Assembly: GCA_023957475.1 (NCBI GenBank)
Contig: JAMLHA010000009.1
Span: 1-64,000, forward strand
DNA length: 64,000 nt
Origin: Crocinitomicaceae bacterium
GTDB taxonomy: Bacteria > Bacteroidota > Bacteroidia > Flavobacteriales_D > Crocinitomicaceae
Direction of reading: 5' to 3'
Shown: in pieces, positions 23,415-38,521 of the stretch
Layout: every line of letters starts with the position of its first letter
How positions within the stretch are numbered: the stretch's first letter is position 1
Position numbers and translations under genes: made by a program
Notes under the pieces: model-generated
The model's database searches: none
Told to the model about the DNA's origin: nothing
Seen by the model: only the letters and a program-made list of their open reading frames with translations

Positions 23415-23444
23415 AAAAAAGAGGTTGCATGCAACCTCTTTTTT
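23415..23444. terminator. Perfectly palindromic bidirectional terminator
   Basis: Thirty bases form an exact palindrome centred on GCATGC: A-rich arm, GAGGTTGC, GCAACCTC, then a T-rich arm. Each strand reads as a GC stem followed by a T run, so it should end transcripts of hpf on one side and of the convergent T9SS gene on the other. Confidence 0.85.
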
Positions 23445-36881: not shown

Positions 36882-37484
36882 TCAATCAACTTTATGATAA
36901 CATTCATTGATATAAGGAACCAATAGATTAAAAACAGCTTCACTGTGAAATTGAATATCTTTTTTAGTTGGTTTTTTATTGTTTACTAATACATAATAGC
37001 GTATCCATGAATCTGAAACAATATATAATGTGTTAAAAACAAGTTCTTGTTGCTTCTTACTAAAACTAAGTTTAAAATAACCATTCATAATTAATAATTC
37101 AAAAAAATTTAAAAACAATGCTTTTCTGTTTACAGTAAGTTCTTGATAAGCCTTTGCAAATTTTGGATATTGATGTATCGTTTTGGGAGATTCTAACATG
37201 ATGAATCTGTATTTTACTAATATAGCAAACCCTTCTGCAAATTTGTTTTTAATGATTTTATTTAAATGCTGGACGTCATTAAAACTATCTTCAGATATAA
37301 TGGATAACATGTCTTTGTCTAACTGCTCAAAAATAGTTGTAAGTAACAATTCTTTTGTTTTAAAATAATAACGAACATGTCCATCGCTAATATTTAAAGC
37401 GTCGGCAATGTCTCTAAAACTGGTTTGATTGATACCATTTTTATTGAACAATTTTATAGAACAAACAAGAATTTTATGTTTCAT
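36882..37484 (-). CDS. TetR/AcrR family transcriptional regulator
   Basis: A 200-residue regulator. Residues 1-50 form the TetR helix-turn-helix (IKLFNKNGINQTSFRDIADA, then LNISDGHVRYYFKTKELLL); the rest is the helical ligand-binding and dimer domain with no recognised ligand motif. It is divergent from two small membrane-protein genes. Its -7-like element TATCTTTG (37497-37490, minus strand) lies only 5 nt before its ATG, so the mRNA may be leaderless, and a perfect palindrome lies between the two genes. Autoregulation is likely but inferred. Confidence 0.85.
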   Translation of the reverse strand: MKHKILVCSIKLFNKNGINQTSFRDIADALNISDGHVRYYFKTKELLLTTIFEQLDKDMLSIISEDSFNDVQHLNKIIKNKFAEGFAILVKYRFIMLESPKTIHQYPKFAKAYQELTVNRKALFLNFFELLIMNGYFKLSFSKKQQELVFNTLYIVSDSWIRYYVLVNNKKPTKKDIQFHSEAVFNLLVPYINECYHKVD

Positions 37485-37508
37485 TACAACAAAGATATAA
37501 TTTTTTTA

Positions 37509-37534
37509 TACTTTTGTCTAGCTCAATTGAGCTA
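37509..37534 (+). promoter_or_regulatory. Promoter and probable TetR operator palindrome
   Basis: TACTTTTG (37509-37516) matches the -7 consensus on the plus strand. Directly after it, TAGCTCAATTGAGCTA (37519-37534) is a perfect 16-bp palindrome covering the expected transcription start of the zinc-ribbon gene. On the minus strand the same palindrome falls near the -33 region of the TetR gene. This is the expected layout for one operator controlling both genes. Confidence 0.7.
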
Positions 37535-37549
37535 ATTTATTTTTTTCTT

Positions 37550-37843
37550 ATGTCAGTTGAACGAAAATGCCCAAGTTGTAAGCAATGGAATAAGGATGAG
37601 GATTATTGTGTTGCCTGTGGAACAATATTGTCTCCACAAATTATAGAAGAAAACAGAGAAAAGGAACGAGAATTAACACGAACAGTTTGGAAAAAAACGA
37701 AAGTTGATATTTTCTTTGAAAAATGGAAAAACACCCGGTTTTTACCGTTGAAAATTATTTATTACATTTTCTATTCTGCTTGGATGATTGTGATGGGAGT
37801 TGCATTTTTGTTTGCTTATCTTACAGTGGGTGTGAATGGATAA
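37550..37843 (+). CDS. Zinc-ribbon membrane protein, unknown function
   Basis: A 97-residue protein. The N terminus has a zinc-ribbon of two CxxC knuckles (KCPSCKQWNKDEDYCVACG). A charged helical linker follows and a single membrane helix lies near residues 66-92 (IIYYIFYSAWMIVMGVAFLF). The ATG at 37550 (MSVERKCPSC) is preferred over the start at 37514, whose extra residues would lie in the operator. Probably anchored in the inner membrane with the ribbon in the cytosol. Divergent from the TetR gene; overlaps the next gene by 8 nt. Confidence 0.7.
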   Translation: MSVERKCPSCKQWNKDEDYCVACGTILSPQIIEENREKERELTRTVWKKTKVDIFFEKWKNTRFLPLKIIYYIFYSAWMIVMGVAFLFAYLTVGVNG

Positions 37844-38219
37844 AAAAGCAGTAAAAAAAACATTGATTACTATTGCTATTATAGCTGTATTGTATTTAGT
37901 AAGTAAAATTATTAAAGCAAATGTAACTATTGCGTTCTTGAAATACCATTTTACGGATTTACTTTTTATACCATTACAACTCACAATCTGTTTGTTGATG
38001 CTACGAATAATAAAAAGAGATTCAACCTTAATTGTTCCAGTTGGGTTAGTTGCAACAATTACTTGCTGTATGGCAGTTCTTTTTGAGTGGTATTTACCGA
38101 TAGTTAAAAAAAATCCCAACCATACTACTGATTTATTTGATGTAGTCATGTACGGAATTGGTGCTTTGTTATTTATTGTATTGCAAAAAAAGAGTTTTAG
38201 TAATCGAGCAAGGTGCTAA
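37836..38219 (+). CDS. Four-helix integral membrane protein
   Basis: A 127-residue hydrophobic protein with about four membrane helices (near residues 9-26, 41-58, 66-84 and 104-120). Proteins like this in Bacteroidota are sometimes labelled magnesium citrate secondary transporter, but no transport motif is visible and I do not trust that name. The basic N terminus (MDKKAVKKT) suggests the N terminus is cytosolic. It overlaps the zinc-ribbon gene, so both form a TetR-divergent operon. Its stop overlaps that of the convergent 101-residue gene. Confidence 0.65.
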   Translation: MDKKAVKKTLITIAIIAVLYLVSKIIKANVTIAFLKYHFTDLLFIPLQLTICLLMLRIIKRDSTLIVPVGLVATITCCMAVLFEWYLPIVKKNPNHTTDLFDVVMYGIGALLFIVLQKKSFSNRARC

Positions 38220-38521
38220 ATCTCTCCTCTCTTATACTTTTCGCGCCATTCTTGCTTTTGAATTTCTCGATTGATGATTAAATCAGCAATAATTTCACCA
38301 GCACCTTTGTTTTGTGGTGCATTTGCTAAAGCTAATCTGACTTTTTGTTCAGAAACATCGATCCGATAAAGAATGGAAACCAATTGATTGAAATCGGTGT
38401 CGATCAAATGGTTGAGGTACTCGCACAACTCGACATACAACTTTGCATTATCGCTCGTTTCACTTGCTTTTGCAGGGAGACCAACCAATTCAGCTACAGC
38501 CTTTAAAGCATTGTCGTTCAT
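38216..38521 (-). CDS. Conserved hypothetical protein next to the LETM1-like gene
   Basis: A 101-residue soluble, mostly helical protein without recognised motif. Repeated acidic and basic helices (LVELCEYLNHLIDTDFN-like segment, then FNQLVSILYRIDVSEQKVRL and a basic end IQKQEWREKYKRGEI) suggest a small helical bundle. It starts 2 nt after the stop of the LETM1/TerB-like gene, and the pair occurs together in relatives as far as I recall, so a joint role is likely but unknown. Confidence 0.65.
   Translation of the reverse strand: MNDNALKAVAELVGLPAKASETSDNAKLYVELCEYLNHLIDTDFNQLVSILYRIDVSEQKVRLALANAPQNKGAGEIIADLIINREIQKQEWREKYKRGEI

Follow-up and report, generated by a model that had tools for sequence, protein, structure and literature searches.

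The 65-bp gap between a tetR gene and a pair of small membrane-protein genes most likely carries a dedicated local TetR-type switch on that pair, with autoregulation of the repressor. We give this reading a probability of roughly 0.8. It concerns a 64-kb stretch of Crocinitomicaceae DNA (hereafter the window), in which a TetR dimer would bind a single palindrome between the divergent genes. When bound, the dimer would sit over the start of transcription of the zinc-ribbon/four-helix operon and also reach the upstream edge of the tetR promoter. Because of this position, TetR would keep both its own gene and the operon repressed, until its release by a small ligand turns the operon on. The identity of the operator is strongly supported by sequence comparison, and repression is suggested by the position of the site; more generally, we infer binding, repression, autoregulation and induction from sequence. 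The term signal-responsive, used in the initial annotation, is plausible for such a switch. That the ligand is likely hydrophobic is speculative.

Switches of this type are familiar, and the pair itself appears in a survey of the Lipocone superfamily (PMC12419801). What is new is the recurring TetR control of a Lipocone pair, together with a correspondence between operator and recognition helix, neither of which was found in the literature searched. The pair is widespread in Bacteroidota and known from computational surveys alone, and TetR gives a handle on it: the inducer of a TetR guarding the pair should show what the pair responds to. Moreover, the operator class and two helix residues would permit target prediction for many uncharacterised TetRs of Bacteroidota.

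A conserved probable operator between divergent genes

The tetR gene (36882-37484, minus strand) encodes a protein of 200 aa with a TetR_N domain (PF00440, E=1.4e-9) and a PF13972 C-terminal domain (E=8.8e-14). Both domains score above their curated cut-offs, with 38 bits (cut-off 24) and 51.9 bits (cut-off 25), respectively. The gap (37485-37549) extends from the tetR start codon (ATG at 37484, minus strand) to that of the zinc-ribbon gene (ATG at 37550, plus strand). It contains the putative operator TAGCTCAATTGAGCTA, a perfect 16-bp palindrome at 37519-37534 that lies within an 18-bp class site, CTAGCTCAATTGAGCTAA, at 37518-37535. This confirms the palindrome described by the initial annotation, whose gene descriptions (TetR, zinc ribbon with one transmembrane helix, and four transmembrane helices) hold as well. 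The palindrome is the sole match to TAGCTCAATTGAGCTA at up to 3 mismatches in the window, and its sole exact match in the genome of 3.14 Mb.

A palindrome of such length is by itself only moderately improbable. Shuffling of the gap produced a perfect palindrome of at least 16 bp in 65 of 20000 shuffles (0.3%). The window contains 3 such palindromes versus a mean of 1.0 in shuffled sequences, and hence length alone is weak evidence. It might even be held against the operator that a bare palindrome is nothing rare in AT-rich DNA such as this genome. The decisive evidence is conservation, not length. As a separate observation, the window also contains a 30-bp perfect palindrome at 23415-23444, with runs of A and T at its ends, which is probably a bidirectional terminator.

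A divergent TetR occurs at only 8 of the 90 pair loci examined across Bacteroidota. All eight have the class operator TTAG-NN-MA-NN-TK-NN-CTAA in the gap, with 11-12 of the 12 fixed positions and 7-9 of the 9 symmetric pairs; the window site has 11/12 and 8/9. The class criterion, defined in this analysis, was at least 11/12 fixed positions plus near-perfect symmetry beside tetR. None of the 82 pair loci without TetR passed on both counts, the best reaching 11/12 with 4/9 symmetric pairs.

A search for the zinc ribbon in 200 genomes of the family gave a match in 49, and the pair was nearly always intact at the loci examined. A divergent TetR was present only in the window genome (G000) and in G002, G020 and G111. 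The pattern TAGCTMAnnTKAGCTA lies upstream of the pair at these four loci and at 0 of 26 others. The operators of G002, G020 and G111 read TAGCTAAnnTTAGCTA and thus show the same one-base difference from the window in each half-site.

Four further loci, all outside the order, were found after the class motif had been defined and confirm it independently, each with 12/12 fixed positions. Two of them, L148 and L155, came from a phylum-wide search for the TetRs most closely related to that of the window. They belong to other families, and in both a homolog of the four-helix protein is encoded divergently from tetR; the operators read TTAGAACAAATGATCTAA/TTAGTACATTTGTTCTAA and TTAGAACAATTGTTCTAA. 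The other two, L186 and L195, were added by a class-wide search with a four-helix profile, which matched 68 of 395 genomes.

The palindrome is therefore almost certainly the binding site of the divergent TetR, as judged from comparative genomics (8/8 loci with TetR, 0/82 without). Genomes that keep the pair but lack the palindrome, regarded by the initial annotation as a sign against the operator, do exist among the relatives. However, TetR is absent there too, so they do not speak against it. Since most pair-bearing genomes have no TetR, TetR control of the pair is an optional add-on.

An alternative explanation might be that TetR acts as an activator or a global regulator, with the palindrome as one of many sites. 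Some members of the TetR family do govern many genes, as does MtrR (PMC8053128). Yet, none of the eight module-carrying genomes has an exact class site anywhere else: the exact site is found once per genome, at the pair locus, in G000, G002, G020 and G111, and the class site nowhere else in G1002, G1074, G514 and G672. In addition, the placement over the start of transcription in the window fits repression. We therefore regard this alternative as extremely improbable.

Placement of the probable operator relative to the promoters

Both TAnnTTTG boxes are where the initial annotation had put them. In Flavobacterium, this Bacteroidota box was measured to span positions -12 to -5 (PMC9723704), which we used to set the promoter coordinates of the gap. 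The -7 element of the zinc-ribbon/four-helix operon, TACTTTTG (37509-37516, plus strand), ends 2 nt before the palindrome and predicts a +1 at ~37521. The -7 element of the tetR promoter, TATCTTTG (37490-37497, minus strand), ends 5 nt before the tetR ATG and predicts a +1 at ~37485, so that the tetR mRNA would be almost leaderless. By this measure, the palindrome lies at about -2 to +14 of the plus-strand promoter and at -34 to -49 of the tetR promoter. The placement fits the earlier proposal that one operator could repress in both directions, which comparative genomics also supports.

Possibly, the palindrome is instead an RNA hairpin, an intrinsic terminator or attenuator of the plus-strand transcript, rather than a protein site. 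A terminator scan does flag it, with a 6-bp stem and an AATT loop followed by ATTTATTTTT (7 T in 8), and a copy with 2 mismatches elsewhere in the genome, after rpmA, looks terminator-like. However, the palindrome begins ~2 nt ahead of the predicted +1, where a terminator makes little sense. Furthermore, the seven other loci keep the inverted repeat but have a shorter T tract or none (1-5 T in 8), and the palindrome tracks the presence of TetR (8/8 versus 0/82). We reject the terminator reading as very unlikely.

The site might also serve autoregulation of TetR only, with the pair expressed independently. This would agree with the 82 of 90 pair loci where no TetR adjoins and the pair is expressed without one, and with the many related TetRs that have operators near their own start. 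In the window, however, the operator lies over the predicted +1 of the pair promoter, whereas at the tetR promoter it touches the outer edge only. At all eight TetR-bearing pair loci it overlaps the plus-strand TAnnTTTG box or lies within ~16 bp of it, and TetR and the pair have stayed adjacent in four families. This makes a purely autoregulatory site unlikely, and a switch acting on both the pair and tetR remains the preferred reading.

Operator class and recognition helix

The recognition helix of the window TetR reads I-S-D-G-H-V-R-Y-Y. The nearest relative of this TetR in the tree is the TetR of L186, with 32% identity (support 100/99). The closest pair-linked relatives, in another family, share the S-D-G-x-x-R helix (ISDGHLRYYFKTKE in L186 and MSDGNLRYHFRTK in L195, versus ISDGHVRYYFKTKE in the window), and their operators are TTAGCGCATTTGCGCTAA and TTAGCTCATTTGAGCTAA, respectively. 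The half-sites of these two loci are TTAGCGCA and TTAGCTCA, and those of the window CTAGCTCA and TTAGCTCA. Identity to the TetR of the sister species G002 is only 21-26%, and the idea that the two are plain orthologs is weakened by the trees. Since the TetRs beside this pair differ strongly between sister species, it is possible that the sensor was replaced while the operator frame was retained. A scan of the genome contigs with TetR alone gave no match.

The operator class extends beyond the pair. For 40 of 48 related tetR genes, the class operator TTAGNNMANNTKNNCTAA of PF13972-type TetRs was present with at least 11/12 positions within 200 bp upstream, a level reached by 0.86% of shuffled sequences. 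The 48 include the four pair-linked genes of the same family, and the others have different neighbours. Each type of recognition helix goes with nearly constant NN bases: GT for Q..N helices, GA for S..N, TA for V..Q, and C plus T or G for L..H and D..R. In a set of 29 representatives with less than 55% identity, half-site bases 5-6 are strongly associated with residue 34 of the helix (mutual information 2.22 bits; permutation p=2e-4, with kinship ignored). In an ungapped alignment, residues 34 and 38 of the window TetR align with R44 and Y48 of MtrR, two residues for which crystal structures show base contacts (PMC8053128).

Compared to MtrR of Neisseria (PMC8053128), the class thus has a homologous helix with the base-contacting positions equal to R44/Y48, but it has D/R or L/H here instead of R/Y. 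MtrR also differs in its operator, MCRTRCRN4YGYAYGK, and in its global regulon. The class resembles local divergent TetR repressors in its TetR_N helix-turn-helix, the PF13972 domain, the divergent neighbour, a palindrome over the core promoter and one operator locus per genome. Unlike those repressors, its target here is not an efflux pump. The literature searched contained no description of the class TTAG-N2-MA-N2-TK-N2-CTAA or of its correspondence with residues 34/38.

We tentatively suggest that residues 34 and 38 may set the variable operator bases in a large class of Bacteroidota TetRs, and that this class may have been attached repeatedly, possibly via two TetR lineages, to the Lipocone pair as a sensor switch, although the odds are somewhat against this combined proposal. 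If it is true, operators would be predictable from the TetR sequence, and the Lipocone pair would be chemically inducible. Likewise, a true correspondence implies that changing D34/R38 of TetR to L/H would favour TAGCTAAnnTTAGCTA over TAGCTCAnnTGAGCTA.

Some related tetR genes showed other features. Upstream of many at L043-L068 and L128-L147, two operators stand in tandem at a distance of ~22-31 bp; their half-sites are asymmetric, TTAGGTC on one side and TTAGTA on the other, though a homodimer is expected. At L043, L044, L048, L051, L056, L062-L064, L066 and L147, the related tetR is divergent from or near a gene that by eye resembles an FAD-dependent monooxygenase (N-terminus xIxGxGIxGLTTAIAL). 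At L153 and L154, a related TetR lies beside another small membrane-protein-like gene (ITHLSQLLDLxTVIGGFxxPLIIWxxKKD), with a palindrome of a different class, TAGGCTAAAAAGCCTA, upstream.

The probably regulated pair

The first gene of the pair (37550-37843, plus strand) encodes a 97-aa zinc-ribbon protein with one transmembrane helix. It is conserved across the order, with an invariant CxxC...CxxC motif in an alignment of 22 sequences. A longer open reading frame with a TTG start at 37514 has no homolog support as the start of this gene. The second gene (37836-38219, plus strand) overlaps the first by 8 bp and encodes a VanZ/Skillet-like membrane protein of 127 aa with four helices. Its residues D41, E84, D99 and D102 are invariant and would lie at helix ends on the periplasmic side, according to the positive-inside rule. 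The structure model shows a short helix at 33-37 between H1 and H2 (pLDDT 89).

The four-helix protein has no curated match in Pfam; VanZ (PF04892) scores 13.9 bits, below its cut-off of 30.1. Its profile matches VanZ with P=1.8e-4 (reversed control 0.13) and DUF2809 with P=3.2e-4 (reversed control 0.62). Both alignments are in register over the E...D..D motif, while the reversed controls are not. This suggests a distant kinship to VanZ. Fold searches of the PDB with the model yielded no meaningful match, which does not point to a new fold, and PADLOC found no defence match. The label 'magnesium citrate secondary transporter', an annotation used for such proteins, was absent from the literature searched and was not adopted.

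The initial annotation considered the pair undescribed and without assigned function. It matches, however, a system in the 2025 Lipocone survey (PMC12419801), whose function there is a prediction: the VanZ-like Skillet-2 Lipocone, with predicted lipid head-group chemistry, coupled to an upstream zinc-ribbon protein with a single transmembrane helix. As in that description, the single-helix zinc-ribbon gene lies upstream and the four-helix VanZ-like gene downstream, and the two are adjacent or overlapping in most loci. The pattern of an Asp in H2, a Glu in H3 and two Asp three apart in H4 is shared as well (D41, E84, D99 and D102), and the modelled helix 33-37 would correspond to the helical 'handle' in the H1-H2 linker.

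The ExxQ motif of H3 differs, since the invariant E84 is followed by xxL and then P; the survey describes ExxQ as only 'largely' shared by Skillet families. Another difference is that in some TetR-linked loci (L148, L155 and L195) the partner lacks the zinc ribbon, while its single hydrophobic helix is kept. Gene order, topology, Asp residues and linker helix thus agree with the published description and ExxQ does not, so that membership in Skillet-2 is likely but not settled. A Skillet-2-type Lipocone and its zinc-ribbon partner would probably act jointly on lipid or lipid-linked head groups at the cytoplasmic membrane, although such lipid chemistry is speculative for this pair. TetR control of a Skillet-2 pair does not appear in the accessible text of PMC12419801, where the sole 'tetr' word is apparently 'tetratricopeptide'.

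Genomic neighbourhood

The convergent neighbour of the pair (38216-38521, minus strand) encodes an uncharacterised protein of 101 aa, with a homolog in G002, and is probably outside the module. This gene lies beside a LETM1-related gene in G000 and G001. In G002 it lies right behind tetR, which it overlaps (L010:459-782), and together with the LETM1-related gene it flanks the module, one on each side. In G001 (L127), of the same genus, the LETM1-related/101-aa locus is present and the whole TetR/pair module is absent. The distribution of the module in the genus is patchy.

Elsewhere, the pair has other neighbours. In three genomes from two other families of the order (L113, L114 and L120), it directly follows a LysR-type regulator that looks OxyR-like by eye. 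At L026, L031, L034 and L037, it lies near a gene that by eye resembles LpxH, a phosphoesterase of the lipid A pathway.
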